From Microcoleus vaginatus HSN003 (lineage in GTDB: Bacteria > Cyanobacteriota > Cyanobacteriia > Cyanobacteriales > Microcoleaceae): a stretch of 64,000 nt of DNA. The position numbers and the translations under genes were made by a program. The stretch lies in the NCBI RefSeq assembly GCF_022701255.1, contig NZ_CP031705.1, forward strand, positions 5,642,001-5,706,000, read 5' to 3'. Below are positions 14,289-38,100 of the stretch, one piece after another. Each line of letters opens with the position of its first letter. The stretch's first letter is position 1. The notes beneath the pieces were generated by a model. That model did no database searches. It saw only the letters and a list, made by a program, of their open reading frames with translations, and was not told the origin of the DNA.

Positions 14289-15242
14289 ATGACATCAACA
14301 CTTTACCAGCAAATTCAGCAACTTTACGACGCTTCTAGCGGTTTGTGGGAGCAGGTGTGGGGCGAACATATGCACCACGGTTACTACGGCCTGGATGGCA
14401 ATTTGAAAAAAGAGCGCCGACAGGCTCAGATAGATTTGATAGAAGAACTGCTGGCTTGGGCTGGAGTACCGTCAGACAAGGCACTGTGTGAATCTTACCG
14501 CATTCTCGATGTCGGTTGCGGGATCGGCGGCAGCACGCTGTATTTGACCGAAAAGTTTAGTTCGATCGCTCAAAATAATTTAAAGTTGGATGGTGGGGTT
14601 GATCGAGAGCGTAGCCGATCGCCCGAACAAAATAAAACGGGCGCTAGCGTTACAGCGACCGGGATTACTCTGAGTCCGGTACAGGCCAACAGAGCGACCG
14701 AACGCGCTAAAATTGCTGGGCTAGAAAGCAATGTGAACTTTTTGGTGGCCAATGCTTTGAATATGCCTTTTCCTGACGAATCATTCGACTTGGTTTGGTC
14801 GCTCGAAAGTGGCGAACATATGCCCGACAAAATTAAGTTTTTGCAGGAATGCTGCCGCGTACTCAAGCCGGGAGGAACTTTGATTTTGGCAACTTGGTGT
14901 CACCGCCCGGTGGGAGAAACGGCGGGAGAATTAACTGATGAAGAGAGAAAGGAATTGGCAGAAATTTACCGGGTTTATGCTTTGCCTTATGTGATTTCTT
15001 TGCCGGAATACGAGGAAATGGTTCGCAGTTTGCCTTTGACAAGTATTCGCACCGCTGATTGGTCAAAAGCTGTTGCTCCTTTTTGGGATGTGGTGATCGA
15101 TTCTGCTTTGACTCCGAGCGCGATTTGGGGTTTGCTCACGAGCGGTTGGACGACTATTCAAGCAGCACTTGCTCTCGGATTGATGAGCCGGGGATATCAG
15201 AGCGGGTTGATTCGTTTTGGGCTGATTTGTGCTGTAAAATAA
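14289..15242 (+). CDS. Gamma-tocopherol methyltransferase (Slr0089/VTE4-like) with in-frame insertion
   Basis: A 317-residue SAM-dependent methyltransferase expected to convert gamma- to alpha-tocopherol at the membrane surface. The family signature LYDASSGLWEQVWGEHMHHG lies near residues 12-31, SAM motif I is ILDVGCGIGGSTLYL near 77, motif II is FDLVWSLESGEHMP near 165 and VLKPGGTLILATWCHRP follows. Between TEKFS and ATGITLSPVQ, where homologues run on directly, there are about 31 extra residues (positions 90-122, DNA 14558-14655) containing VDRERSRSPEQNKTG. This insertion carries GATCG-rich repeat-like DNA and keeps the frame. The gene is followed 98 bases later by homogentisate phytyltransferase, so two tocopherol steps sit together. 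MPBQ methyltransferase is the closest alternative. Confidence 0.9.
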   Translation: MTSTLYQQIQQLYDASSGLWEQVWGEHMHHGYYGLDGNLKKERRQAQIDLIEELLAWAGVPSDKALCESYRILDVGCGIGGSTLYLTEKFSSIAQNNLKLDGGVDRERSRSPEQNKTGASVTATGITLSPVQANRATERAKIAGLESNVNFLVANALNMPFPDESFDLVWSLESGEHMPDKIKFLQECCRVLKPGGTLILATWCHRPVGETAGELTDEERKELAEIYRVYALPYVISLPEYEEMVRSLPLTSIRTADWSKAVAPFWDVVIDSALTPSAIWGLLTSGWTTIQAALALGLMSRGYQSGLIRFGLICAVK

Positions 15243-15340
15243 CAGGGATAGATCAGAGAAGTTTTGAGTTTTGAGTTGATGAGTAAGGTGCGTATTACGC
15301 ACCTACAGAATATTATTTGTGTGGTGCGGGTGTGAGATTT

Positions 15341-16336
15341 ATGGGCAATGATTCGATTGGCAAGTCTTGGATTGATAAAAATGGCTCGGCTCCGCAAAGC
15401 TGGGTGAGGGCATTTTGGGAGTTTTCTCGACCGCACACCATTGTGGGTACTAGCTTGAGTGTATTGGCTTTGTATGCGATCGCCCAAAGCACGAGTCTGT
15501 TTGTGAATCCTGTATTTTTGCCCCTAGCTTTTGCCTGGTTGGCTTGCATTTGCGGCAATATTTATATTGTGGGATTGAACCAGTTAGAAGATGTTGAAAT
15601 TGATAAAATAAATAAGCCGTATTTGCCGATCGCCTCGGGAGTGTTTTCTCGGAAAACCGGGGAATTAATTGTAATTGCAACGGGAATTATAGCAATTTTG
15701 ACGGCTGTTTCACAAGGCCCGTTTTTGCTGGCTACCGTTGGCGTTAGTTTGGCGATCGGGACTGCTTATTCTCTGCCCCCAATTCGGCTGAAACGGTTTC
15801 CTTTTTGGGCGGCGCTGTGCATTTTTACGGTGCGGGGCGCTATCGTAAATTTAGGGTTATTTTTGCACTTTAATTGGGTGTTGCGTTTGGGAATGGCGAA
15901 AAGCGCTTTGTCTGGCTGGAGTTTGGAGAGTGTGTCTTTTCGGATTCCTGCGGAAGTGTGGGTGCTGACGGTTTTTGTTGTGGTGTTTACATTTGCGATC
16001 GCCATTTTTAAAGATATCCCCGACATGGAAGGGGACAAGCAATATAATATTACTACGTTTACGATTGAGCTGGGCAAGCCGGCCGTCTTTAATTTATCTC
16101 GCTGGGTGTTGACGGTTTGTTATGTGGGCGCGACTTTAGCCGGAGCGATCGTATTGTCTAATGTTAATTTAGTGTTTCTGGCAGTTTCTCATTTGGCGGC
16201 TTTGGGTTTGATGTGGTTTTGGAGCGCGAAAGTTGATTTGGACGATAAAATAGAAATTGCTGCATTTTATCAGTTTATCTGGAAGTTGTTTTTCTTAGAA
16301 TATCTGATTTTTCCCGCAGCTTGTTTGTTGGGGTAG
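15341..16336 (+). CDS. Homogentisate phytyltransferase (UbiA family)
   Basis: A 331-residue integral-membrane prenyltransferase that joins phytyl diphosphate to homogentisate, the committed step of tocopherol synthesis (Slr1736 in Synechocystis). Both aspartate-rich motifs are present: NQLEDVEIDKINKPYLPIAS early in the protein and KDIPDMEGDKQYNITTFTIE near residue 225. These bind Mg-diphosphate. About eight hydrophobic helices follow the RPHTIVGTSLSVLALYAIA segment. The ATG at 15341 (MGNDSIGKSW) is preferred to an upstream TTG at 15317. It lies just behind the tocopherol methyltransferase and is probably cotranscribed with it. Tocotrienol-type geranylgeranyl transfer is possible, but the cyanobacterial family uses phytyl diphosphate. 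Confidence 0.92.
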   Translation: MGNDSIGKSWIDKNGSAPQSWVRAFWEFSRPHTIVGTSLSVLALYAIAQSTSLFVNPVFLPLAFAWLACICGNIYIVGLNQLEDVEIDKINKPYLPIASGVFSRKTGELIVIATGIIAILTAVSQGPFLLATVGVSLAIGTAYSLPPIRLKRFPFWAALCIFTVRGAIVNLGLFLHFNWVLRLGMAKSALSGWSLESVSFRIPAEVWVLTVFVVVFTFAIAIFKDIPDMEGDKQYNITTFTIELGKPAVFNLSRWVLTVCYVGATLAGAIVLSNVNLVFLAVSHLAALGLMWFWSAKVDLDDKIEIAAFYQFIWKLFFLEYLIFPAACLLG

Positions 16337-16361
16337 AAGGGGGAGAAGGAAGTTCGGCAAC

Positions 16362-16490
16362 GGATTATGTAACGGATGTAACGGATGTAACGGATGTCAG
16401 GAAGAAGGAAGAAGGAAGAAGGAAGGGGGAAGGGGGAAGAAGGGAGAAGGAAGGGGGAAGAAGGAAGAAGGAAGAAGGAAGGAAGAGTTA
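16362..16490 (+). repeat. Microsatellite-like tract before the giant TPR gene
   Basis: Three to four copies of TAACGGATG run from about 16367 to 16397, followed by about 90 bases of GGAAGAAGGAA/GGGGGAAG purine repeats. An open frame passes through the tract into the next gene, but the translated stretch is just low-complexity RRKKEEGR, so I do not treat it as coding. Slippage here could alter the distance from promoter to start. Confidence 0.8.
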
Positions 16491-16549
16491 ACACATTAGA
16501 ACACGTTGGCAATTACCAGTTAGCGAACTCCCAAACAACAAAGACAACT

Positions 16550-19500
16550 ATGGCTTCTCAAAAAAAAATTCGGAAATCTGCCTGTACACTGGGTGCCGAA
16601 GACTCTTTGAAATTAGCTTGGGAACATCACCAAGCGGGACGTTTGTTAGAAGCTGAGAATTTGTACCGGCAAATAATAGAAGTGCAGCCGGAATCAGCAA
16701 ACGTGCTGTGTTTGTTGGGAATAGCGGCGAGACAGCAGGGAAAGATTGCAGAGGCGATCGACTTTTACGAACAGGCGATCGCCCAAAACCGCGATTTTGT
16801 AGAAGCACATTTAAATAAGGCTAATGTTTTGCTGGATGTACGCGAGTATCAAAGGGCGATCGCCAGTTACCAACAAGTCATCAAAATGCAGCCAAATTCC
16901 GCACTCGCTTACAATAATTTGGGGTGGGCAAAACAACAATTAGGCGAAATAGACGCGGCTATTTTATATTACCAAACAGCGCTGCAATTTGACCCCAATC
17001 TGCACGAAACAGCGCACAACTTAGGACATTTATTTAAACAAAAAAATCAATTAAACGAGGCGATAGCTTGTTACCTCCACGCTTTAAAAATAAATCCCAA
17101 TTTGACATATTCCCTGATGGGCTTGGGAACTGTTTTGCAGCAGCAAGGTAAATTAGCTGAAGCTTTCAACTGCTACCAGCAAGCGGTTACAATTGACCCT
17201 AACAATCCCGAAGCTCACAACAATGTAGGCGCCTTTTACCACGAACAAGGTAATGTGAAAGCCGCAATATCCTACTACAGACAAGCATTAAAGTTAAAGC
17301 CAGATTTCGTGGAGGCTATTAACAATCTCGGACACGCTTTGGTCGATTTAGGAGAGTTTCAAGAGGCTTTTTCTTGTCACAGTCGAGCTTTGGAATTGCA
17401 GCCAGACAACGCCACCGCACACCTGGAATTAAGTTTAACTTTGCTATTGTTCGGAGATTTTCAGCGCGGTTTTGCTGAATATGAGTGGCGGTGGCGCACT
17501 CCGCAAGTATCGCCCAGGCAATTTAAACAGCCGGTTTGGGATGGTTCGGATTTGCAGGGGAAAACTATTTTACTCCACGTCGAGCAAGGCTTTGGCGATT
17601 CTATTCAGTTTATTCGCTACGCCCCAATTCTTCGGAGCCGAGGCGCTAAAGTTATGGTGGCTTGCTATCCAGAACTGATGCGGTTGTTTGCGACAGTTCC
17701 TGGTATTGAATATTTATCAGTTAGTCTGGAAGGTTTGCCAGAATTTGACGTTCACGCACCTCTGATGAGTTTGCCGCGAATTGTGGGGACAACTCTGGAA
17801 ACAATACCTGCAAATGTTCCTTATTTAGAGCCGCCTGCTGAGTGCAAATTTGCGCTTTCTTCTGATGCCAAATTGAAGGTAGGGATTGTTTGGGCGGGGA
17901 GTCCGCAGCGTCGGAAAGACTATCAGCGTTCTTGCAGTTTGAGCGATTTTATTCAATTTTTGGATGTTCCGGGAATTGCTTTTTATAGTTTACAAAAAAA
18001 CTTGTCCGAGAGCGATCGCACTTTGTTGAACCAACACTTAGTGCCGGATTTGAGTCCACATTTGAGCGACTTTGCTGATACCGCTTCGGCTATATCCCAA
18101 CTGGATTTAGTGATTAGTGTCGATACGGCTGTGGCGCACTTAGCCGGTGCTTTAGGAAAACCGGTTTGGGTGTTGCTTTCTTTTGCTCCTGACTGGCGTT
18201 GGCTGCTGGATCGTGAAGATAATCCTTGGTATCCAACTGCGAGGCTTTTCCGCCAAACTCAGCCGGAAAGTTGGCAAGAATTGTTTGAGGAAGTACAGGC
18301 GGCTTTGAGTTTATTTGCGATCGCCAATACTGCTAGTTATTCCGAGGATTATGGCCACGAGCCGCTTGACTTCGTTTCGCTCGCCATGACTGGTAATAAT
18401 ACGCCTGACCTCGATTCTGTGGCTCTCAAAATGACAGGTGCAAGCGTGGTTAAAGAGAGTAAACAAATATTTGGGAGCGCGAGCGAAGGGTTAGCAGAAG
18501 GCTCCGCAGCTAAGCAATCGCAGGGGATTGAGACATCGATTGCGATCGCAAGAGGTGGCGATAACCCGGTTGTTTTAGAGGATTTGTTGCGACAAGCAGA
18601 ACAGTTAATGGAAACAGGAGATCGGGAAGAGGCGATCGCCCTTTATGAACAGATTATATCTATTGAGCCAAATTGCGTTCAAGCGCGGATTAATTTTGGT
18701 TTTCTCAAACAAGAAAAGGGCGAATTAGACGCAGCTATTCCGCATTACCGAGAAGCTTTAGCCATCGATCCAAATATTCCTCAAACCGCTTACAACTTGG
18801 CAAAGATTTTTGAGGAACAAGGTCAAGTGGAAGAGGCGATCGCACATTACAAGCAAGCTCTTGTAGCTCAACCAGATTTCGTGCCCGCACTGATTAATTT
18901 AGCCGTGGCGCTGCAAGAAAAAGGTGAACTTGTAAGGGCGATCGAGCTGTACCGACGAGCACTGGAAATTCATCCGCATAGCTGGGAAGCTTACAACAAT
19001 CTGGCAACAGTGTTGCAAGAACAGGGCAATTTAGAAGATGCGCTGGAGTATTATCACAAAGCTCTAGAATTGCTGCCTGATTTTGTGGAAGCTATTAACA
19101 ATTTAGGCAGAACGTTTCTGGAAAAAGGTGCGGTAAAAGATGCGATATCCTGCTACAGACGAGCGATTCATTTAAGTCCCAATCACGCTAGCGCTCACCT
19201 GAATTTGTCCTTGGCTTTACTGTTGGTGGGAGATTTGGAGAATGGTCTCACCGAATACGAGTGGCGCTGGCAAATTAAAGAATTTCACACTGGTCACTCG
19301 TGTTTTTTGACGGGGCCGGAAAATACAGTTTCGGCGAGAGAATACCGACCGCTGTGGGACGGTTCTGATTTGGTGGGAAAGACTATTTTGCTGCACGCCG
19401 AACAAGGTTTAGGCGATTCGCTTCAGTTTATCCGCTACGCTGCGATCGTCAAAAATAAAGGCGGTAGGGTAATTGTCGGCTGTTACCCGCAATTACACCG

Positions 19501-22500
19501 TTTATTTGCAACGGTTGATGGTATTGATTTGCTAATAGTTAAAGGCGAGCCACTGCCGGAATTTGACGTGCAAGCGCCGATGTTGAGTTTGCCGTATATT
19601 CTTGGTACAAATCTGGAAACAATACCGGCAAATACTGCTTATTTATCTCCGCCAGCGGGTGCTGAATTTGGACTTTTGCCCGATCGCAATTTGAAAGTGG
19701 GGATTGTCTGGGCGGGGAATCCAAAACACCGCAAAAACAAGCAGCGTTCTTGCAGTTTAAGCCAGTTTCTGCCGCTTTTGGACGTTTCGGGGGTAAGTTT
19801 TTACAGCTTGCAGAAAGAGGTTTCCGAGGCCGATCGCGCGCTGTTGAATCAAACGTCGATCGTAGATTTGAGCCCGCATTTTGGTGATTTTGCCGATACT
19901 GCGGCTGCGATCGCCAAACTGGATTTAGTTATTAGTGTGGATACCGCTGTCGCCCATTTGGCGGGCGCTTTGGGCAAACAGGTGTGGATTTTGCTGGCGT
20001 TTTCGCCGGATTGGCGGTGGCTGTTGGAGCGTGAAGATAGTCCTTGGTATCCAAGCGCAAGGCTGTTCCGGCAGCATCAGCGGGGCGACTGGGAAAACGT
20101 TTTCGATCGGGTTGCGGAAGCTCTAGGCGCTGTTGCTGCTGCATTTGTGCCGTCAGATTCGGCGGATGCAGAGTTTCGGTTGGGCGTGGATTTGCAGCAA
20201 CAAGCCGATTTTGGCGGTGCGATCGAATGTTATGAGCGAGCGATCGCGATCAATCCTAATTACGCAGCCGCGCACAGCAATTTAGGCGTTGTCAAGCAAC
20301 AAGCGGGCAGGCTCCCAGAGGCGATCGCGCACTACCGACAAGCGCTAGCAATCGACGGGAATTTGGCGGAAACTGCGAGCAATTTGGGTAGCGCGCTCGC
20401 AGAAGCAGGGGAGACTGAAGAGGCGATCGCAGAATACGAGCGGGCGCTTTCTTTGAACCCGAATTGCGCGGAAGCGCTGATTAATTTGGGTTTGTTGCGG
20501 GAAGAGCAAGGGGATGTGGCGGAGGCTATAAGCTGCTACGAGCAAGCGATTCAAGTCAATCCTAATTGCGCGGTGGCTTATTTGAATTTGGGAATTGCTT
20601 TGGAGGCACAAGGGGAGGAAGCGGGCGCGAATTACGAACGGGCGATCGCGAATTATGAACGGGCGATCGCGATCGAGCCAAATTATGTGGAGGCCCTGCA
20701 CAACTTAGCATACGCCTCGATCCGCCAGGGCAAAATTGACCGCGCGATCGCATACTACGAGCGATCGACTGCACTGCAACCGGATTTAGCAGAAACTCTG
20801 ATCGGTTTGGGGAGTTCCCTGCAACAGCAAGACAAGTTAAATGAGGCTCTGGCCGTTTGCCAGCAAGCGATTCAGCAATTGCCAGCCAGTGCACAGGCTC
20901 GCTGCAATCTAGGAATTGTCCTGCAGAAACAGGGCAAAATTGAAGATGCGATCGCCTGCTATCAGCAAGCTTTGAGCCTCAAACCCGACTTTCCTGAAGC
21001 TTTGAACAATCTCGGCAAAGCTTTTGAGGAAGCGGGAAAAATGGCAGAGGCGATCGATTGTTACCGTCGGGCGATCGAACTCAAACCCGGTTATATCAAT
21101 CCCCTCACCAGTTTGGGAAGTGCTTTGCACGATCGCGGCCAATTTGCAGATGCTGTCACCTATTACAGCCAAGCAGTTAAATTCAATGTCGGGAATCCCG
21201 AATCTCACCTAAATTTAGGTTTAGCGTTGCTGCTGGCGGGAGACTTTCAGCGCGGTTTTTACGAGTACGAATGGCGACTCCTAGTTAAAGAAAAACAGTT
21301 CCGATTCCACAACTTTATTCAGCCACTTTGGGATGGTAAAAGTTTGGAAGGACAAACTATTTTGCTTTGCCCGGAACAGGGTTTAGGCGATGCAATTCAG
21401 TTTATCCGCTACGCAGATTTAGTCAAGCAAAAAGGCGGTAGGGTAATTGTTTGGTGTTTGCCGCACTTGGAGCGCTTGTTTGCACAAGTTTCGGGAATCG
21501 ATGGGTTAATAGTTAATCCAGAGGATGCGCCGGATTTTCAAGTTCACGCGCAGCTAATGAGTTTGCCTCACCTTCTGGGAACAACTTTAGAAACTATACC
21601 GGCAAAAGTTCCTTATTTAGCTCCGCCGCCCGGTTGGGAATTTACTCTTAGTCCAACTCCTAATTTGAAAGTAGGGATTGTGTGGTCTGGAAATCCTAAA
21701 AATTCCCAAAATAAGGTGCGATCGTTACCCCTAAATTTGTTGACAAAACTGTTAGATATTCCCGGAGCCGAATTTTACAGTTTGCAAAAGGAAATGACAG
21801 CAGACGCTCGCGCTTTGTTAGAGCAAATGCCAGTAACAGATTTAAGCTCTTATTTGCACGACTTGGGGGATACTGCGGCGGCAATCTCGGCTCTGGATTT
21901 AGTGATTTCTGTAGATACTTGTGTTGCACACTTGGCTGGTGCTTTGGGCAAACCCGTGTGGATTTTGCTCTGTTTTGTGCCGGATTGGCGGTGGATGTTG
22001 CAACGCGAGGATAGTCCTTGGTATCCCACGGCGCGGCTGTTTCGCCAGTCAACAGGGGGAGATTGGGAAGGAGTTTTAGAAGAAGCTGCTTTGGCGCTGA
22101 GAGAAAGAATTGTCCAGCATAAACCAGCTATACCGCCAAGAGAAACTCAAACCAATATTGATTTATATCAAAAACAGTTCAATCAGGGAAATATTCTCAA
22201 GTCGCAAGGAAGATTGCCCGAGGCGATCGCTTATTTTAAAAATGCTTTAGTTTTGCAGCCGAACTCGATAGAGGCTACCACTAATTTGGCAGTGACGCTG
22301 CACCAAACAGGCGATTTAGCCGAAGCTGCCACCTATTATCAGCGCGCGATCGAAATCGACCCTAACTGCGCTCAAGCCCAGAATAACTTGGGTATTTTGC
22401 TGCAAGCTCAAGGCAATATAATGGCGGCTATATCTTGCTTTCAAAAGGCGATCGCCCTGAATCCGGTGTACGTCAAAGCTGTCAACAATCTCGGCGCTAC

Positions 22501-25500
22501 ACTCCAGCAGCAGGGGGATTTGCCGACTGCGATCGCGTGTTTTCATCAAGCACTTTCCGTCAATTCTAATTACGTGCCAGCGCTCATAAATTTGGGTGAG
22601 GCGATGCAAGCAAAATGTCAGTTAACCGAGGCAGAACGGCTTTACGAACGTGCAATTGAAGCAGAACCGAATAATCCTACAGGACACTATCACCTGGGAA
22701 CGTTATGCTTAGGGGTGGGAAAAATAGAACAGGCAATTTCTAGCTTGGAACGAGCCATATCTTTGCACCCTAATTATCTAGAAGCTCTTACTAATTTAGG
22801 CAGTGCTGTTGAACAATTAGGAGACGTAAACCGAGCACTTTTGTGTTACAGTAAAGCTATAGAAATTGATGCAAATTGTGTTAAAGCTCACTTCAATTTA
22901 AGCTTAGTCTTGCTGTTGACTGGGGACTTGCCACGCGGTTTAGCTGAATACGAGTGGCGCTGGCAAACAGAACAGGCGAAAAAATTACCACGGTTGAATT
23001 TTGAGCAACCAGTTTGGGATGGTTCAGATTTGAACGGCCAAACTATTTTGCTCCGATCCGAACAAGGTTTGGGCGATGCCATTCAATTTGTGCGATACGC
23101 GGCAACTGTGCAGCAGAAAGGCGGCAAAGTAATCATTTCTTGTTATCAAGAACTGAAGCGTTTATTTAAGCAGATTCCTGGCATCGAACAAGTGGCTGTT
23201 CGGATGGATGAATTGCCGGATTTTCAAGTGCAAGCACCGCTGATGAGTTTGCCTCATATTCTGGGAACAAATTTAGAAAATATACCGGCAAATGTTCCTT
23301 ATTTAGCTGCGCCGCCGAATTGGCAATTTTCCCTAAATTCCGATCGCAATTTCAAAGTTGGGATTGCGTGGGCGGGAAGTTCGGAACATTTGAAGGATTT
23401 TCAGCGATCGAGCGATTTAAGCTATTTCCTGACATTGTTAGATATTCCCGGTGTAAGTTTTTACAGTCTTCAGAAAGAAACGTCGGCGGAAAATCGTACT
23501 TTGTTAACTCAAATTCCCGTGATAGATTTGAGCGACAATTTGAACGATTTTGCCGATACTGCGGCGGTGATATCGCAACTAGATTTAGTAATTTGCGTGG
23601 ATACTGCTGTCGCGCACTTAGCCGGTGCTTTGGGTAAACCCGTATGGATTTTGCTGTGTTTTATGCCGGATTGGCGGTGGATGTTGGAACGCGAGGACAG
23701 CCCTTGGTATCCGACGGCGCGACTGTTTCGGCAGCAAACACCGGGCGATTGGGAGGAAGTATTCGATCGCATAAAAACAGCCTTAAAACACCTAATTTCT
23801 ACTCGTCCCCAAGCTGTGCCTGGTAAGGAAGATACCGAAGCTTCGCCTCGATTTTCTCTATCGCCCGCCCAGGTACAATTTCACATAGCAAATGCCTTAG
23901 AAAAACAAGGTAAAAAAGCAGAGGCAGCCGCTCGTTACGAACAAGTAATTGCCGCCTCCCCCAGCCACGCCGAAGCCCACAGTTATTTAGGTTATCTCAA
24001 ACAGGAAAACGGGCAAATAGCCGAGGCTATTGCTCATTACCAAAAATCGCTAAAAATCAATTCTAACCAGGCTGAAACTAACTTATATTTGGGTTCTGCC
24101 CTGGAAGAACAGGGACAAGTCACAGAGGCGATCGACTTTTATAATAAAGCAATTCAACTACGTCCCAACTCGCCCAATTGGCGCTTGAGACTAGCCTTAG
24201 CTTTGCTTTTAACGGGAAATTATGAGCGCGGTTTTGCGGAGTACGAATCGCGCTGGCACACTGAACAATTGGATCAGCGCTCTTTTGAGCAACCACTTTG
24301 GGACGGCTCGGATTTGCAGGGAAAAACAATTTTATTGCACCCGGAACAAGGTTTTGGCGATACGATACAATTTATCCGCTACGCACCTTTAGTTAAGCAA
24401 AAAGGTGGCAAAGTTATTGTTGCTTGTCATGTCTTGCTGAAGCGTTTGTTTGAAGGAATTGCAGGAGTCGATCGAGTAGGAGTCAAGCCGAGCGATTTGA
24501 TAGATTTTCAAGTGCAAGCCCCGCTGCTAAGTTTGCCGCGAATTCTGGGAACGACTTTGGAAAATATACCGGCGAATATTCCTTATTTAGCTCCGCCACA
24601 GGATTTTAAATTTTCCCTAGAGGCGAACAATAAACTCAAAGTAGGTATTGTGTGGGCGGGCGGCCCGCTGCACCGCAACAATCATCGGCGATCGTGTAAA
24701 TTGAGCGATTTTCTGAAATTTGTAGATGTTCCGGGAGTGAGTTTTTACAGTCTTCAGAAAGATTTGTCAGCGGGCGATTCCCTACAGGATAGCAGCGCTT
24801 CACGCACTTTATTAAAGCAATACAAAATTGAAGATTTAAGCGAACATTGTGTCGATTTTGCCGACACCGCAGCAATTATTTCGCAACTCGATTTAGTAAT
24901 TTGCGTAGATACTTCTGTGGCACATTTAGCCGGTGCTTTGGGCAAACCAGTCTGGATTTTGCTGTCTTTTGTTCCCGATTGGCGCTGGATGCTGGAACGC
25001 GAAGATAGCCCTTGGTATCCCACTGCGCGTCTGTTTCGCCAGCAAAAACCGGGTGATTGGGATGGAGTTTGCGATCGTATAAAAGCAGCCTTAGAACACT
25101 TAATCTCTACTGGTTCCCAGCCTCAGCCTGCTAACGCCGATTTTTATGCTCCGCCTCAAATCCAACCCCCAGAAACTCCCCCACAAATTACAGGAATCGG
25201 CATCAGTTGGCCGATCAGCATCACCAGCGGTTGGGGAATTTACGGCGTGAATTTAACACTACAACTGCTGCAAAATCCTGCCTGGGAAGTTGCACTTTTA
25301 GCACCGCCCTCAATTACCTCAGAATCGATGAATCCGCTGCATAAATCGCTGTTATTACCTGTAATTGAAAAGCAAAAAAAATTTCAGGAATTAGTAGCAG
25401 CCAATTCCGACAAACAAATCAGTTGTAATTTTCCCGTACTTTACGCTTTGGGGAATAATTTAGCATCCTCTGGAGTAGACAATCAAATTACCAGCGCTTG

Positions 25501-26371
25501 TCAAATAGGAGTCATATTTTTTGAAGACACGCGAATCACAGCAGAAGCACTAGAAACAGCCAAAAAATATAGCGTGATTGTGGCCGGTTCCAACTGGAAT
25601 GCCGATGTTTTGAGAAGCCACGGCTTGACTAATGTGGCGATGGTAAATCAAGGAATTGACCCAACAATTTTCCATCCTGCACCTAAATCTAATCTATTTG
25701 GCGATCGCTTCGTCATTTTCTCCGGCGGCAAACTGGAATATCGCAAAGGTCAAGATATTGTAATTGCCGCTTTCAAACGATTTCGCGCCAAACATCCAGA
25801 GGCTTTGTTACTAACAACATGGCACAACTTCTGGCCTCAGTATATGTTAGGAATCGAACAAACCGGAAACGTTGCGGGACTTCCCAATATCAACCGCGAC
25901 GGAAGTTTAGGAATTTCCCAATGGTTAGTGGCTAACGGTTTGCCGATTGACTCTTTTATCGACATCGGCTTAATTCCCAATCACCTCGCCGGACAAATTT
26001 TGCGAGAAGCCGACTGCGCTGTTTTCACCAACCGCTGCGAAGGAGGCACTAATTTAGTTGCGATGGAAAGTATGGCCTGCGGAATCCCGACTATTTTATC
26101 AGCAAATACGGGCCATTTAGACTTAATTTACAGCAACATTTGCTATCCTTTATCGAGCCAAGGACAAGTTAAACCTACTGGTGCTTTTTGCGGTGTAGAA
26201 GGTTGGGGAGAGTCTGATGTTGCAGAAGTTGTCGAGGCTTTGGAACAAGTTTATACTAATCGCGAAGAAGCAAAACGTCGCGGTTTAGCTGCGGCTAATT
26301 TTATGCTAGATTGGACTTGGGAAAAACAGGTTAAGCGCTTTCTTGATGTGATACTTAATGTGATGAGATAA
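16550..26371 (+). CDS. Giant TPR protein: five TPR/GT9-like modules plus C-terminal GT4 glycosyltransferase
   Basis: A 3,273-residue protein, no signal peptide or membrane helix. Five modules each have TPR repeats then a GT9-like domain: TPR about 18-290, GT 291-587; TPR 681-880, GT 882-1194; TPR 1206-1550, GT 1551-1854; TPR 1873-2113, GT 2114-2414; TPR 2441-2545, GT 2546-2851. Every GT-like domain repeats LLLxGDxxRGxxEYEWRW, EQGxGDxIQFIRYA, KVGIVWAG, a VDTxVAHLAGALGKPVW loop comparable to the nucleotide-sugar site of heptosyltransferases, and DSPWYPTARLFRQ. A different domain, GT4, fills 2881-3273 with EGGTNLVAMESMACGIPTIL (E-x8-E type donor site). Start 16550 (MASQKKIRKSA) avoids translating the purine tract upstream. 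Single TPR/GT units are common; five in tandem is not. It may glycosylate a protein or polymer in the cytosol. Substrate unknown. It converges with another glycosyltransferase fusion. Confidence 0.9.
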   Translation: MASQKKIRKSACTLGAEDSLKLAWEHHQAGRLLEAENLYRQIIEVQPESANVLCLLGIAARQQGKIAEAIDFYEQAIAQNRDFVEAHLNKANVLLDVREYQRAIASYQQVIKMQPNSALAYNNLGWAKQQLGEIDAAILYYQTALQFDPNLHETAHNLGHLFKQKNQLNEAIACYLHALKINPNLTYSLMGLGTVLQQQGKLAEAFNCYQQAVTIDPNNPEAHNNVGAFYHEQGNVKAAISYYRQALKLKPDFVEAINNLGHALVDLGEFQEAFSCHSRALELQPDNATAHLELSLTLLLFGDFQRGFAEYEWRWRTPQVSPRQFKQPVWDGSDLQGKTILLHVEQGFGDSIQFIRYAPILRSRGAKVMVACYPELMRLFATVPGIEYLSVSLEGLPEFDVHAPLMSLPRIVGTTLETIPANVPYLEPPAECKFALSSDAKLKVGIVWAGSPQRRKDYQRSCSLSDFIQFLDVPGIAFYSLQKNLSESDRTLLNQHLVPDLSPHLSDFADTASAISQLDLVISVDTAVAHLAGALGKPVWVLLSFAPDWRWLLDREDNPWYPTARLFRQTQPESWQELFEEVQAALSLFAIANTASYSEDYGHEPLDFVSLAMTGNNTPDLDSVALKMTGASVVKESKQIFGSASEGLAEGSAAKQSQGIETSIAIARGGDNPVVLEDLLRQAEQLMETGDREEAIALYEQIISIEPNCVQARINFGFLKQEKGELDAAIPHYREALAIDPNIPQTAYNLAKIFEEQGQVEEAIAHYKQALVAQPDFVPALINLAVALQEKGELVRAIELYRRALEIHPHSWEAYNNLATVLQEQGNLEDALEYYHKALELLPDFVEAINNLGRTFLEKGAVKDAISCYRRAIHLSPNHASAHLNLSLALLLVGDLENGLTEYEWRWQIKEFHTGHSCFLTGPENTVSAREYRPLWDGSDLVGKTILLHAEQGLGDSLQFIRYAAIVKNKGGRVIVGCYPQLHRLFATVDGIDLLIVKGEPLPEFDVQAPMLSLPYILGTNLETIPANTAYLSPPAGAEFGLLPDRNLKVGIVWAGNPKHRKNKQRSCSLSQFLPLLDVSGVSFYSLQKEVSEADRALLNQTSIVDLSPHFGDFADTAAAIAKLDLVISVDTAVAHLAGALGKQVWILLAFSPDWRWLLEREDSPWYPSARLFRQHQRGDWENVFDRVAEALGAVAAAFVPSDSADAEFRLGVDLQQQADFGGAIECYERAIAINPNYAAAHSNLGVVKQQAGRLPEAIAHYRQALAIDGNLAETASNLGSALAEAGETEEAIAEYERALSLNPNCAEALINLGLLREEQGDVAEAISCYEQAIQVNPNCAVAYLNLGIALEAQGEEAGANYERAIANYERAIAIEPNYVEALHNLAYASIRQGKIDRAIAYYERSTALQPDLAETLIGLGSSLQQQDKLNEALAVCQQAIQQLPASAQARCNLGIVLQKQGKIEDAIACYQQALSLKPDFPEALNNLGKAFEEAGKMAEAIDCYRRAIELKPGYINPLTSLGSALHDRGQFADAVTYYSQAVKFNVGNPESHLNLGLALLLAGDFQRGFYEYEWRLLVKEKQFRFHNFIQPLWDGKSLEGQTILLCPEQGLGDAIQFIRYADLVKQKGGRVIVWCLPHLERLFAQVSGIDGLIVNPEDAPDFQVHAQLMSLPHLLGTTLETIPAKVPYLAPPPGWEFTLSPTPNLKVGIVWSGNPKNSQNKVRSLPLNLLTKLLDIPGAEFYSLQKEMTADARALLEQMPVTDLSSYLHDLGDTAAAISALDLVISVDTCVAHLAGALGKPVWILLCFVPDWRWMLQREDSPWYPTARLFRQSTGGDWEGVLEEAALALRERIVQHKPAIPPRETQTNIDLYQKQFNQGNILKSQGRLPEAIAYFKNALVLQPNSIEATTNLAVTLHQTGDLAEAATYYQRAIEIDPNCAQAQNNLGILLQAQGNIMAAISCFQKAIALNPVYVKAVNNLGATLQQQGDLPTAIACFHQALSVNSNYVPALINLGEAMQAKCQLTEAERLYERAIEAEPNNPTGHYHLGTLCLGVGKIEQAISSLERAISLHPNYLEALTNLGSAVEQLGDVNRALLCYSKAIEIDANCVKAHFNLSLVLLLTGDLPRGLAEYEWRWQTEQAKKLPRLNFEQPVWDGSDLNGQTILLRSEQGLGDAIQFVRYAATVQQKGGKVIISCYQELKRLFKQIPGIEQVAVRMDELPDFQVQAPLMSLPHILGTNLENIPANVPYLAAPPNWQFSLNSDRNFKVGIAWAGSSEHLKDFQRSSDLSYFLTLLDIPGVSFYSLQKETSAENRTLLTQIPVIDLSDNLNDFADTAAVISQLDLVICVDTAVAHLAGALGKPVWILLCFMPDWRWMLEREDSPWYPTARLFRQQTPGDWEEVFDRIKTALKHLISTRPQAVPGKEDTEASPRFSLSPAQVQFHIANALEKQGKKAEAAARYEQVIAASPSHAEAHSYLGYLKQENGQIAEAIAHYQKSLKINSNQAETNLYLGSALEEQGQVTEAIDFYNKAIQLRPNSPNWRLRLALALLLTGNYERGFAEYESRWHTEQLDQRSFEQPLWDGSDLQGKTILLHPEQGFGDTIQFIRYAPLVKQKGGKVIVACHVLLKRLFEGIAGVDRVGVKPSDLIDFQVQAPLLSLPRILGTTLENIPANIPYLAPPQDFKFSLEANNKLKVGIVWAGGPLHRNNHRRSCKLSDFLKFVDVPGVSFYSLQKDLSAGDSLQDSSASRTLLKQYKIEDLSEHCVDFADTAAIISQLDLVICVDTSVAHLAGALGKPVWILLSFVPDWRWMLEREDSPWYPTARLFRQQKPGDWDGVCDRIKAALEHLISTGSQPQPANADFYAPPQIQPPETPPQITGIGISWPISITSGWGIYGVNLTLQLLQNPAWEVALLAPPSITSESMNPLHKSLLLPVIEKQKKFQELVAANSDKQISCNFPVLYALGNNLASSGVDNQITSACQIGVIFFEDTRITAEALETAKKYSVIVAGSNWNADVLRSHGLTNVAMVNQGIDPTIFHPAPKSNLFGDRFVIFSGGKLEYRKGQDIVIAAFKRFRAKHPEALLLTTWHNFWPQYMLGIEQTGNVAGLPNINRDGSLGISQWLVANGLPIDSFIDIGLIPNHLAGQILREADCAVFTNRCEGGTNLVAMESMACGIPTILSANTGHLDLIYSNICYPLSSQGQVKPTGAFCGVEGWGESDVAEVVEALEQVYTNREEAKRRGLAAANFMLDWTWEKQVKRFLDVILNVMR

Positions 26372-26485: not shown

Positions 26486-28924
26486 TTATTTCAACTTTTG
26501 AAACCACACTCCTGTTTCATCAATCGTATGCAGAGAAAATGACTCGCCTTTCATCATCTCAAAATCTTGTACTGCTTGCTTGCAGCCCTCCCAGTGTCCG
26601 TAATCATCAACTTGAATAAAACCATTAGAAATCACGCTGTCATAAAGCGTATTAAATATATCCATTGTTGATTCATACCAATCTCCATCAGCGTGCAGAA
26701 ACGCAATACTTCCTATTGCTAACTTGTGTGTGGGTAAAGTCTGGGCGAATAATCCCTTAACCGGTACAACAATATCTCTAACTTGCAGTAATTCACAAAT
26801 TTTATCCAAATTTTCACTAATTGAAGCTTTGAGAGTTCCTTCGCCAAAACCGGTAAGATTGGCAGGTATTCCCTGATGTCGATCGATCTCCGTAGGTGCG
26901 GGCATTCCTTCAAACGTATCAAAAGCATACAGCACTCTCGGACGGCGGCTGTAATGTTTAATTACAAATGCTATCAATGCTGCTGAGCCGCCTTTGCAAG
27001 TTCCACATTCTACAAAATTTCCCGGCAAATCTTCCACACATATTTGCTTTGCCAAACAATACAGAGAAAACAGTCTCGATTCGCTAAGCAGCGTATAGGG
27101 GCGAACAATTGAAAAAATATTTTTAAAGTTTGTAGGAAAAGTTTGCAGTGATGATGTGCTGCTTTGAATAATTGTCTGTAATTTTGGCTGTTGTAACGTT
27201 GGCAATTTTTGTTGAGGAAACTCTTTGCTAACGGGCATACCGCTGACTGAATAATCCTGCAAATGTGCTGGCAACTGCCAGGAAATATTGGGGTCTGGTT
27301 GATGTTTTACTGGCTCGACATTACCCCGCCAAGCTGCACCCATAATTTGCATTGTTTGATAAATTACAGTATGCCATCCTCTTTGCTTAAAGTAATCTAA
27401 ACCTCGCGCCACAGCAGGAGCAGCTAAGTCGTGAAATAAAATTATCGCATCTTGTTCAGCAAGTTTTTCGCAAACAATTGCGTCATTTAATGGGCCCTCA
27501 CCTTCGTGCTCTCCATCAATAAAAATCAACGACCATTTGCGGTTGAATTGAGCGGCAAAATTTGCTACTCTTTGGGGGCTGTAACCGGGGATTAGCTCGA
27601 TGGTCGTTTGCACTCCCGAGGCATTGAGAGCTTGTTGAATTGAATCGATTACACTTTGCCTAATATCATCTCGTTCTAATAGCGGATCAACAACATCTAA
27701 GGCAACTCCGGCGAGCGCTAAGTGACAGGCAGACCACCCTAGCCAGCAGCCTATTTCTAATGCTTTTTTACCTTTAAATTGCAGAGCTGTATTATAAAGG
27801 ATGTGTGCTTCGTCTCGGCTGAGAAATCCGACTGAGTTAGCACGGCGATCGACATACCAATTGTGCTTAATCTCCCGGCGCAAATAAGGCCACGAACAAG
27901 TCTGAGTATCGCCAACAATCATGTTGGGAAAGTACGCATCTGGGAGAATAACTTTCAATCCAGGCGAGACGTAATCTCCGGTAGGCAACAAAGTATTGTT
28001 TGTGATTTCCGATAACCGTGGTAATGTCTTTTTTTCTCCTGTGAACTTAGGAAAGTGTGGCTTGTTTATCGGTGGGTAGCGGAGACTAATTTCTATGTGA
28101 TTTGCGTCCGTTGTTTCTAATTTTACCAAGTCGTGCTTGTGGCCAGTCATGTGCAGAATGCCGATCGACTTATGCGGCAAATACGGCTCCACAAAACAGG
28201 CTTGGTGCTTGTCCCAAACGGGCAAACCAAAGTTACAGCTCCAATTGCACCAAGCCGGCAGCATCTCTGTTTTGTAAAATAATTCTGTGCCGTAAACTAA
28301 GCGATTTAAGGCTATTTGGTCAGTCATTAAAGAGACGTGCTGCTGTAATCCTTGTTCCAAATATTCCTCCCAAACTTCCCAGTGCCGAGCATCTTTTTTT
28401 AGAGCAAAAACACCAGCATTTATGGTAGGATAGCTGTGCAACTGTTGGGCTACTTCTTCGCCAAAAGCTGCCTGATAATCGCGGTAAACAAATTGCCCGT
28501 ACCAAGGGAGTTTGCCGTAAGCTAAATAATAACCCCGGTCGAGTTCTGGAACAACTGCTAAACCGCGTTTATCTGCGCCTTTAATTAACAGATCAACAGC
28601 TTGCCAATCTTGCACCCAAGCATCGGCATCTATCCAAAGGTAGATGTCGAAATTGGGAAAATATCGACGGAGAAACGGACGCGCTAAAAGTCCTTTGAGA
28701 TAGTGAGGGGCTTCATTTTTGCCGGGAAAGTTAAAGTCCCAATCTGGCTTTTGAATAAAATTAACTTGTGTTTCCAGCCACTGCAACTGTTGGGGAGTGC
28801 AGCCGAGATCGAAAAAGCCGATCGCCACATTTTCACCCTCGGGTTTTTCCCGCACCGATAAAATAGTGCCTCGCACCAATTCAAAGTAATTTGCATCGGC
28901 GGCCGTGATGATGATAATCTGCAT
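26486..28924 (-). CDS. Three-domain glycosyltransferase / methyltransferase / TylF-type O-methyltransferase
   Basis: An 812-residue cytosolic fusion. Residues 1-300 look like a GT-A glycosyltransferase: IIIITAADANYFELVRGTIL at the start, a metal-binding DAD at 99-101 in YLWIDADAWVQ, and NAGVFALKKDARHWEVWEEY. Residues about 380-545 are a class I SAM methyltransferase (ALEIGCWLGWSACHLALAG; SLIFIDGEHEGEGPLNDAIV; ILFHDLAAPAVARGL). Residues about 600-812 are a second methyltransferase of the TylF/macrocin O-methyltransferase family (GNFVECGTCKGGSAALIAFV; YAFDTFEGMPAPTE; IAFLHADGDWYESTMDIFNT; QVDDYGHWEGC). The chain could add a sugar and methylate it. The convergent TPR/GT giant suggests a shared glycan pathway (inference). 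Both SAM-binding glycine motifs and the DxD are intact. Acceptor unknown. Confidence 0.88.
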   Translation of the reverse strand: MQIIIITAADANYFELVRGTILSVREKPEGENVAIGFFDLGCTPQQLQWLETQVNFIQKPDWDFNFPGKNEAPHYLKGLLARPFLRRYFPNFDIYLWIDADAWVQDWQAVDLLIKGADKRGLAVVPELDRGYYLAYGKLPWYGQFVYRDYQAAFGEEVAQQLHSYPTINAGVFALKKDARHWEVWEEYLEQGLQQHVSLMTDQIALNRLVYGTELFYKTEMLPAWCNWSCNFGLPVWDKHQACFVEPYLPHKSIGILHMTGHKHDLVKLETTDANHIEISLRYPPINKPHFPKFTGEKKTLPRLSEITNNTLLPTGDYVSPGLKVILPDAYFPNMIVGDTQTCSWPYLRREIKHNWYVDRRANSVGFLSRDEAHILYNTALQFKGKKALEIGCWLGWSACHLALAGVALDVVDPLLERDDIRQSVIDSIQQALNASGVQTTIELIPGYSPQRVANFAAQFNRKWSLIFIDGEHEGEGPLNDAIVCEKLAEQDAIILFHDLAAPAVARGLDYFKQRGWHTVIYQTMQIMGAAWRGNVEPVKHQPDPNISWQLPAHLQDYSVSGMPVSKEFPQQKLPTLQQPKLQTIIQSSTSSLQTFPTNFKNIFSIVRPYTLLSESRLFSLYCLAKQICVEDLPGNFVECGTCKGGSAALIAFVIKHYSRRPRVLYAFDTFEGMPAPTEIDRHQGIPANLTGFGEGTLKASISENLDKICELLQVRDIVVPVKGLFAQTLPTHKLAIGSIAFLHADGDWYESTMDIFNTLYDSVISNGFIQVDDYGHWEGCKQAVQDFEMMKGESFSLHTIDETGVWFQKLK

Positions 28925-35119: not shown

Positions 35120-38100
35120 TTACCAAGGCGAACCGATCATAGTAAAAGCAGCCCAATAATAAGGATGCGAGAAATTTCGATCGCCCCTGGCGGCCAACTC
35201 CGACGGTAAAGGCAGAGCTTGATTGTTGCCCGATCGCACCAAATAACCATCTTGCAACCGCACTTCTCCCCGCAGCATCGCCAACTGCGCTTGCCGCAAA
35301 GCCTCAGCCTTAATTGGCGCTGTACGCAACTCCTGGTAAAACTCAGTCATCAGCCCCAAAGTAGCGACATCACTGACATACCACAAACTCGCCAAAGCCG
35401 ATTTTACCCCCGCGTGCACCGCCAACCCCGCGAACCCCAACTCAGCTTGTTCGTCTCCCACCGCCGTAGTACACGCACTCAAAACCAACAACTCCACCTG
35501 CGGGTTAGATAGCTTCAACTGCTCCAACTGATTCAACCGCAACTTAGTATCCCAAAACTGAATGTAAGAATTTTCCGCCCCCCCAGGCTGAAAATCCCCG
35601 TGAGTAGCTAAATGAATAATTTTGTATTGCGGTTGATTGCGCTTGTCCTTCAAATTTGCCAAAGTAAAAGCTTCATTGAGAAAAGACAAACCCGGCCAAA
35701 TCTTGCCGACAATTGTCGATATTTCCAACGGCACTGCAGGCAAAGGATTTTGATCGTATTTGGCAGGAAATTTCGACGCACCCATCGCTAACACTTCAGA
35801 ACCCTTAACATCGGCATAGCGAGTATCAGTTAAACTCAAACTCGGAATCAGCCCCAAACTGTACTTTTCTACCAAAAACTGCTTGCCGTCGTAAAGAGCA
35901 GCCAAAGGCAAAGTTCGCAAACCGGCATCCATCGAAAACACCAAGGTGTCAATCTTGTTAGCCTCCAATTCCGGTTGCAGCGGTGCAATTAACCACTGGT
36001 AAAGTTGCTCGGCAGGTTCCTTGTAATTAGTAGCATTCAATCTCCTAGGAGTTCTGATAGCATTAGTGAATTCTTTAGCAACTTGCAGCACTGTCTCGCG
36101 GCTTGCAGGCACGCTTTTAAAAACATTTTTGCCGTCTGGCAATAACAACACAAGTTCTAAATGTTTTTCTTTCGCCCACACGTAAAGGATCGCAGGTTTA
36201 ACTCCAGTCAACCGATTGACGCTGCTGAGAGTATCTCGAATACTTTGCTGCGTGACCGACTTTTGACCGAGATTGCCCCCAAAGTAACGTTCAAATTCCC
36301 GCCCCTGAGTTATATCCCTTTGCTGCACTGCATCCATCGGACTTATTTGCGCGATCGAACTCGATCGAGAAATCTCAGGAACCCTGACATTCCCGACACT
36401 TTCTGCACTCACCGCACTCGCAGGCTTCTGTGGAGTTGTTGCCACGCTGCCGTTTTCTCTCGTCGCAGGCGCGCCCAAATTGTCTTTTAACACCGACGGC
36501 GACAGCACTACCGAGGAGCGGGCCGCAGTCTCGTTCGGTCCCGCATCAACAGACGTAGCAGCAGGTTCTGGCGAGACATTTGTGGTAGTGCCCTTTGGCA
36601 CCGACACTGCGGGAGGGAGAGTCACCTGAGTCACAATTTGTTGAGAATTGTCTGTAGTTTGCAGTTCCACGCTGCTAGTTGGTGCCGGACTCGGCACGAT
36701 CGCCAGCGGCCCGATAGCAGTTGAGGATGTGGCAGTGTTCGACTGCGAGTTTCCCGTCCCAACAGTCGCCGTGCAACTTCCCGACGGGCAAGTGCTTTGC
36801 AGCAGCAGCGTTTGTGAACCCGATTGAGCCAGCCCGTCTGTAGAAATGCTGACCTCGGCGCGATCAGCAGCCGTTCCTGTTCCCGCTGGGCGAAATTCTC
36901 CCCCAGCCTCGATTGCCACATCGCCGCCGGTATTGCCACGAGCTTTGATCGAAACAACTTCAACATCTTTCTGCCCGATAATTTGGCTCGAACCGGCACT
37001 TCCCGATTGCGAACTCGAGTTGATTACCCCTGTAACGATCCGGCCCGGCGCCGCAATCGAAATATCTCCCCCGCTTCTGGCACCAAAAGCATCGATATTG
37101 CCGGTTTCTACCGCACCGGCGCTGTCGATATTGATAGGGCCCGCCACCCCGGAAGTTGAGCGAGATGAAACCGTACCAGCAGTCAACTTGCCTTGGGTGC
37201 TCGTGATGTTAATCCCCGCTTTCGAGGTAACATCTCCAACGGATACAGTACCGCCCATCAGAGAGATCGTGGCGTTATCAGTTCCGACGATCGCACCCGT
37301 TCCCACGATCGCGCCTGCACCATTGGGCGATCGAATCGTCGTCGGATCTTGAAATGTCACCGCCACTGGCGTTGAATTCGGCGTTGAATTTGGCGTTCCA
37401 GAAGCAATCGAGATCACACCGCTACCGTCAGCGCGCCCGATCGTCATCGAAGCAAACCCATTCCGAAAAGTGTTAAATTCCGCAGCAGTCAAGTTCAGGG
37501 CTTCTGTATCGCCAGAACCTTGAATTATAATATTTTGGCTTGGATCAGCCGGTTGCACCACCAGATTGCCGTTGCTGGCGATCGAATTGTTGTCACCTGT
37601 CAAGTCAATTTCGTTGCCCGTCAGGGTAATATTTCCCGGTGTTTTCGAGCCACCAGCTTCGATCGCCCCCGCAGTGACTTTATTGCGCCCCGTCAGCGTC
37701 ACATTCCCCGCGCGATCGCCCCTCGTGTCGATCGCCCCGGCAGTCACCGTGCCCTGTGCGGTAACACTAACATCTCCCGCCGAATTGCGTATATCTTGGG
37801 AAGAATTGACAGCAGTGTTGATGGTGCGGGCAGTTCCAGTAAGTAGCTGACCGGTTGTGACATTGCCTGCGGTGCTGGCGATGCGAATTTGCTGATTATT
37901 GGTAGTGATATTTCCGGTTCTGATATTGCCGTCAGCTTTGAGAGTAATTGAGGCATTGTCGGCCGCTGTCAAAGAATTTGTGGTAGTGATTGTTCCCAAA
38001 CCCGCTGGCGATTGAATAATTAGCGGATCATAAAATGTGAAATCGTCGGCAATCAGAATTGAACCGATACCGTTGCTGCGCCCGATCGTAATTCCTGCAA

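Follow-up and report, generated by a model that had tools for sequence, protein, structure and literature searches.

A conserved Microcoleus protein with five tandem TPR-glycosyltransferase modules and a C-terminal GT4 domain

A single open reading frame of Microcoleus vaginatus HSN003 encodes a 3273-residue protein in which a unit made of a TPR array followed by a GT9-like glycosyltransferase domain is repeated five times, and in which a GT4 glycosyltransferase domain ends the chain. This architecture had been predicted from the DNA alone, and was confirmed by the ORF, by Pfam, by a local profile and by comparison with relatives of the gene. Catalytic glycosyltransferase units normally number one or two per protein, and the Microcoleus protein is a real, conserved new variant among TPR-guided cytoplasmic glycosyltransferases. 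As to its function, we tentatively favour, as something close to an even call, a multi-headed cytoplasmic protein O-glycosyltransferase, i.e. an enzyme of the FlmG/OGT kind that has been multiplied. The gene and its convergent neighbour lie as follows in the window, by which we mean the whole stretch of 64,000 nucleotides that was analysed:

16394..16549, forward strand: in-frame upstream extension, low-complexity GAAGG repeats (GAAGGAAGG-type), probably untranslated
16550..26371, forward strand: whole gene, five times a TPR array plus a GT9-like GT-B domain, then a C-terminal GT4 domain, 3273 aa
16595..17515, forward strand: TPR array 1, ~9 repeats by length, boundaries approximate
17516..18289, forward strand: GT9-like domain 1
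18290..18595, forward strand: linker from module 1 to TPR array 2, delimited by difference
18596..19336, forward strand: TPR array 2, ~7 repeats by length
19337..20107, forward strand: GT9-like domain 2
20147..21307, forward strand: TPR array 3, ~11 repeats by length
21308..22081, forward strand: GT9-like domain 3
22142..22996, forward strand: TPR array 4, ~8 repeats by length
22997..23767, forward strand: GT9-like domain 4
23852..24280, forward strand: TPR array 5, ~4 repeats by length
24281..25072, forward strand: GT9-like domain 5
25250..26368, forward strand: C-terminal GT4 domain, Glycos_transf_1 plus signature
26486..28924, reverse strand: convergent neighbour, 812 aa, with an N-terminal DAD-motif domain, Methyltransf_24 and a C-terminal TylF methyltransferase

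The frame is open from 16394 to 26371 and could encode 3325 aa. A start at 16550 fits better than one at 16394, because the 52-aa extension is made of low-complexity GAAGGAAGG DNA and because N-termini of the MASxK type are found near the frame starts of three other loci (L013, L019 and L031). In the 3273-aa protein, Pfam finds five stretches of Glyco_transf_9 and 25, 20 and 30 stretches of TPR_1, TPR_2 and TPR_11. A local profile puts the GT domains at aa 323-580, 930-1186, 1587-1844, 2150-2406 and 2578-2841, and GT4 at aa 2901-3273; since it was made from these same five modules, its scores of 481-504 bits for the five GT9-like domains serve only to place them. The C-terminus scores 45.0 bits against Glycos_transf_1 (E 1.2e-11), well above the cut-off of 26.4, and is thus a GT4 domain. 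Its signature, [NS]RxEGGTN-x4-E, is present in 52/52 strongly matching frames, a count that includes the window and in which some genes appear twice. The usual GT4 glutamate motif is EX7E; here 8 residues, one more, separate the two glutamates. Two motifs had been said to recur in every module. EQGxGD and VDTxVAHLAGALGK do so (5/5), but the longer form EQGxGDxIQFxRYA is found in 4/5, module 2 having L for I, and the P of VDTxVAHLAGALGKPVW likewise in 4/5, module 2 having Q before VW; the reading of the latter as a donor loop was right. Promoter-like sites were at chance level (22 found, 19.9 expected). Two genes lie upstream, a methyltransferase (14289-15242) and a homogentisate phytyltransferase (15317-16336). 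An operon with them was considered and rejected, since they look like tocopherol genes, and we make no link between them and the present one. Elsewhere in the window, a 1716-aa protein (35120-40270, reverse strand) has a TPS secretion domain and, at its C-terminus, a CHAT domain.

An AlphaFold2 model of module 1, computed from 126 aligned modules, consists of TPRs followed by a two-domain GT-B-like fold (pLDDT 96.6, pTM 0.94). All 50 PDB matches listed by Foldseek for it are protein TPR glycosyltransferases of the SPINDLY/OGT type, with TM-scores by query length that are low (0.26-0.40) and matches that rest partly on the TPRs; one may guess that a different posing of TPR and GT parts explains the low scores. 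As regards sequence, the five modules reach 24.1-28.4 bits in a search of the own genome, above the 22-bit cut-off of the GT9 family (PF01075), and Glyco_transf_9 is detected at E<=0.1 in 21/21 members of the module family (A2; score set against the cut-off for member 1), though what aligns is no more than the part of the profile that holds the donor motif. The similarity did not extend across the entire domain: hhalign of A2 against one single sequence, the genome's own full GT9 protein, gave 31 columns with a probability of 37.5% (E 0.00035). Judged by sequence, the GT domain is therefore tied to GT9 through the donor motif alone. Glyco_transf_41 was detected neither in module 1 (E<=0.001) nor in the 21 members (E<=0.1), while the own genome holds 13 GT41 matches in seven other frames, none of them in the GT modules. 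Three GT41-matching frames of 738-1223 aa lie together within 9 kb of the own genome, outside the window (G000:C1:569651-578314).

These features place the protein between known systems. With O-GlcNAc transferase and SPINDLY (GT41), which provide the best Foldseek matches, it shares a TPR superhelix preceding a GT-B domain, but its GT-domain profile has no match among PDB sequences at E<=10 and matches Pfam GT9 instead. OGT and SPY each carry a single such unit of catalysis, not five. With the heptosyltransferases WaaC and WaaF (GT9) it shares the donor-site motif VDTxxAHL, but it adds TPR arrays and multiple heads, and the columns that align to the genome's own GT9 protein are the 31 just mentioned. 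Its layout is also that of FlmG of Caulobacter crescentus, a cytoplasmic flagellin O-glycosyltransferase that, according to PMC7591256, has an N-terminal TPR part and a C-terminal GT-B-type domain. FlmG, as described there, is a 596-aa protein with one TPR and one GT unit that modifies flagellin, whereas the Microcoleus protein has five units and a GT4 domain in a genome without a flagellin match. The likeness is one of domain layout (TPR then GT-B, here five times) and of flagellin-adjacent multi-module relatives. In listings of the literature, mainly from non-subscription journals, we recognised no paper on a multi-module TPR-GT9 protein.

A search for other proteins with two or more modules, as proposed in the original prediction, found them in the order and in other phyla. 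GT4 domains of this type (E<=1e-60) are present in 33/195 genomes, belonging to 14/94 genera sampled from the order, in frames of 426-3355 aa, not always together with the modules (L135, L136, L139). One module plus GT4 is seen in L037, L068, L132, L134 and L140, two plus GT4 in L124, L126 and L127, three plus GT4 in L035, L060, L129 and L137, four plus GT4 in L033, L125, L128, L130 and L131, and five plus GT4 in L074 (the same as L133; Trichodesmium), L123 and the contig-cut L034. Other arrangements are GT4 first (L036), separate neighbouring single-module genes (L038) and, in Hormoscilla (L055), six modules with no GT4 in frame. The Hormoscilla array may continue in broken frames, as the contigs of L055 and L135 are equally long and the two loci lie ~3 kb apart by their coordinates. 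The number changes inside one genus (g55), with four modules in L125, L128 and L131 against three in L129 and L137, L138 being contig-cut. Outside the cyanobacteria, 11/52 named loci have at least two modules in one frame, with a maximum of five, the fifth in two pieces. Five of the non-cyanobacterial loci (L063, L073, L077, L087 and L105) belong to the Geobacteraceae, the family of Oryzomonas and Geomonas. Two of them, L073 and L105, have, as in Microcoleus, five tandem TPR-GT9 modules in one frame, but no GT4 in that frame and a fragmentary fifth module without EQGxGD; L077 and L087 have their modules distributed between two genes, and a GT4-like match is found in a separate upstream frame. 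The original prediction was to fall if similar proteins proved common, and this is half the case: five-module proteins are the rule in Microcoleus and recur elsewhere, but a GT4 of this type is present in only 33 of the 195 genomes sampled from the order.

In a tree of 53 modules, all those of Microcoleus form one clade (ultrafast bootstrap 100), within which each position is a clade of its own (95-100); internal support is often low in wider module trees. Position-by-position descent (1-1 ... 5-5) shared with Trichodesmium (L074) or with L123 was rejected by AU tests based on four Microcoleus genomes and covering this pairing only (p 1e-41 and 1e-152). The single clade and this rejection imply that the modules multiplied in the Microcoleus lineage or were homogenised before the radiation of the genus, possibly by ancient gene conversion among modules. 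Multiplication, or homogenisation, has taken place repeatedly in separate lineages, and multi-headed enzymes seem to have arisen more than once in bacteria.

In the multi-headed protein glycosyltransferase that we propose, each TPR array would dock part of an acceptor protein and the GT-B domain after it would transfer a sugar to it, the nucleotide-sugar donor being identical or nearly so for all heads. With five heads in a single chain, the enzyme could serve more sites, or reach further along an acceptor that is long or has several sites. A sugar of another kind would be added by the C-terminal GT4, and species-specific methyl or further sugar groups would come from the enzymes that the adjacent gene encodes. 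The protein acceptor in Microcoleus, the common donor of all heads, the cytoplasmic location and the order of reactions are what we infer. The proposal draws on the conserved site and purifying selection of every head, on the small number of specificity-like columns, on the near-identical modules of some relatives and the changing module number in g55, on the flagellin genes next to the Geobacteraceae genes, on the module 1 model with its SPINDLY/OGT matches and on the tailoring neighbour. Counting against it are the want of a flagellin match in the genome, the small share of loci with flagellin, most from one family, the separate clades of the five positions, the divergence of Trichodesmium module 3, the degenerate head of the Geobacteraceae arrays, the low TM-scores and a GT9 link made by the donor motif alone.

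The original prediction had offered an assembly-line polymer-sugar enzyme. Put in full, each head of the one protein would add one sugar in a fixed order, and a single acceptor would end up with an oligosaccharide some six sugars long. We retain this as a possible though doubtful reading and do not favour it. The five positions are five separate clades, and each of the 18 complete genus genes besides the window has five modules; specialised heads would also fit the fact that each Microcoleus position has its own clade and its own TPR array length, kept apart genus-wide. Moreover, a different GT4 and tailoring genes would complete a glycan. However, heads that each add a sugar of their own should show many position-specific columns, and those fixed within each module yet differing between modules amount to only 13/233 (8/110 in the N half of the GT domain and 5/123 in the C half), which would rather be explained by heads repeating one kind of step. 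The N halves, the acceptor side in GT-B enzymes, do differ more between modules than the C halves (mean 0.376 versus 0.266, p 0.014), a weak argument that acceptors, and not donors, differ; but conservation within modules is also a little lower in the N half (0.891 versus 0.912), so that its larger difference may reflect mere looser constraint. In relatives, near-identical modules further argue against an ordered line: in Trichodesmium, identity among modules 2, 4 and 5 is 85-92% and module 1 is 72-77% identical to them (module 3 is only 49-52% identical to the other four), and L136 modules 3 and 4 are 94% identical. Pairs at 85-94% identity can hardly add different sugars, and the number of modules changes inside one genus. 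Taken together, these comparisons make it more likely that all heads carry out the same type of reaction than that they form a line adding five different sugars.

For some relatives, flagellin genes suggest what the acceptor may be. Four ORFs served as seeds of a flagellin profile; Pfam, run on three of them, names these as Flagellin_N/_C, and the fourth lies in L073. With this profile, flagellin-type ORFs were found in 7/80 named loci, every one of them outside the cyanobacteria (52 loci): the five of the Geobacteraceae, L085, where flagellins lie on both sides of the TPR-GT9 gene, and L088. In 5/5 Geobacteraceae loci the flagellin frame starts 34-172 bp downstream of the TPR-GT9 frame, the modules directly upstream being in one five-module gene (L073, L105) or split over two genes. 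This linkage is what protein O-glycosyltransferases of the FlmG type would predict. It is associated with multiplicity: 6/11 multi-module loci have a flagellin against 1/41 single-module loci (Fisher p 1.4e-4), a p value that overstates the linkage since five of the six multi-module flagellin loci are from one family. No flagellin was found within the DNA examined at 45/52 non-cyanobacterial loci, including 5/11 multi-module ones, some of which are on short contigs. Flagellin_N has no match in the own Microcoleus genome (4/14 control genomes match), so that the acceptor there must be something else. For Caulobacter, PMC7591256 reports that flagellin is bound by FlmG through its TPR part and not by the GT part alone, and a review on cyanobacterial type IV pili mentions an Ogt involved in pilin glycosylation (PMC12288463). 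A pilin or another surface protein would be the natural guess for Microcoleus.

Glycan-tailoring domains are found in the convergent neighbour at 13/13 loci read, window included, and its N-terminal 540 aa are 70-97% identical over these loci. The N-terminal domain, with DAD and NAGVF motifs, looks GT-A-like by eye and is followed by Methyltransf_24; it has no significant family match, the nearest being Pfam GT8 at E 0.13 (L031) and three PDB matches at E 0.5-0.9. The C-terminus is variable: TylF alone (window, L018, L021), a CmcI-type domain plus TylF (L023, L024, L031), a methyltransferase plus GT2 (L013, L014, L019, L027, L029, L030) or GT2 (L028). As the type of the C-terminus does not follow that of the N-terminus (the common N type occurs with a GT2 C type in L019, L028 and L030), the domains have probably been exchanged, and this methyltransferase/GT2 variation suggests a recombination that diversifies the glycan. 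At E<=1e-40, the N-terminal part is present in 21/23 same-genus genomes (partial in G006, in two pieces in G003) and in 0/15 sampled genomes of other genera. Absence of the tailoring gene from L025 and L026 was considered and rejected, for it was found in both genomes: in G004 it lies ~10 kb further downstream on the contig of the five-module gene, and in G010 a different contig carries it. In L025, extra genes occupy 14783-19901 between the five-module and the tailoring gene, including one (16222-17400) with a start that is transposase-like by eye. A constant core enzyme beside a changing tailoring enzyme would be a pattern of surface glycans.

Such a neighbourhood could also mean that the TPRs assemble a complex for the synthesis of a polysaccharide or lipid-linked glycan, the acceptor being the glycan and not a protein. 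GT2 and methyltransferase domains, as in the neighbour, are usual in exopolysaccharide loci; an FkbM methyltransferase gene adjoins L034 and a GT2+methyltransferase gene adjoins L033. However, among the 18 ORFs that were scanned, besides the present gene, of the window's 35 of at least 150 aa, Pfam names no polysaccharide export or polymerase gene, and related genes are linked to flagellin. We consider a glycan acceptor decidedly improbable.

Another possibility raised by the original prediction is that the protein is a scaffold with only some of its modules active. The five GT-like domains were aligned, with 20-21 Microcoleus rows per module position, and E345, G347, G349, D350, R356, Y357, W448, R460, D525, T526 and H530 (the histidine of DTxxxH) are invariant in all five positions. 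By analogy with GT-B enzymes and the GT9 motif, these are candidate catalytic or donor-site residues. Variable columns include Q353, which is H in 11/21 module 5 rows, and D510, replaced in 5/21 module 3 rows. Pairwise dN/dS over 19 full-length genes is 0.128, 0.155, 0.205, 0.152 and 0.194 for GT domains 1-5; the GT4 domain has 0.131, and the TPR arrays range over 0.20-0.32. All five GT domains are thus under purifying selection, and there is no sign of dead heads in Microcoleus. Across relatives, E, D, D and H are kept together in 200/221 modules, a set that includes only five Microcoleus genomes and excludes pieces of <200 residues; of the remaining 21, the most numerous kind has the second D replaced by C or E. 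In Geobacteraceae heads can die: the arrays L073, L077 and L105 end in a degenerate module that lacks EQGxGD. Such decay is a precedent for a partial scaffold, but with candidate residues and purifying selection preserved in every Microcoleus head we regard this alternative as very unlikely in Microcoleus.

Lastly, repeat collapse or false joining of separate genes, which had been named as what would undo the prediction, can be dismissed with near certainty: five GT9 modules plus GT4 are found in this order in one frame of 3131-3381 aa in 18/20 Microcoleus loci, two of them in genomes assembled into a single contig (G019) and into six (G012), and the modules, at 54-66% identity in protein, 62-72% in DNA and 46-56% at third positions (36-46% for TPR arrays of different modules), are neither a recent repeat nor an assembly collapse. 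The two exceptions are L016, contig-cut (3+GT4), and L032, with 3 and 2+GT4 in two overlapping frames. Nothing speaks for an artefact in the window, although the gene is in two frames in MAG loci (L032/L046, L045, L047). The contigs labelled Richelia sp. CSU_2_1 (L046, L047) hold two Microcoleus-type gene copies and probably come from a mixed or mislabelled MAG. The 20 loci were read, one each, from the 23 same-genus genomes searched, G003, G006 and G009 being left out; 22 of the 23 match at E<=1e-20, with exactly five matches in 18 and 0, 3, 4, 4 and 11 in the others. In the own 6.76-Mb single-contig genome no whole GT module was found elsewhere among the 150/171 first-look candidates scored; the 13 matches at E<=0.001 are the five modules and eight stretches of 36-62 residues at the TPR end, two of which are inside the same 3273-aa frame.

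One may speculate, at a level of confidence that we would call low, that the protein is a countable enzyme, in which the number of heads would set how many sugars or sites are served per acceptor binding and a neighbour with swappable domains would give species-specific decoration of the same core. In relatives the number of heads goes from 1 to 6; it would evolve by gain and loss of modules and seems to have risen repeatedly. With this natural series of 1, 2, 3, 4, 5 and 6 heads, partly within one genus, one can ask if the length of the glycan or the number of sites depends on how many heads there are, and if acceptor choice lies with the TPR arrays. For the Geobacteraceae genes flagellin is a likely acceptor, with which the question of head number could be addressed, and the Microcoleus gene would point to a new surface glycoprotein in a gliding cyanobacterium that forms crusts and mats.
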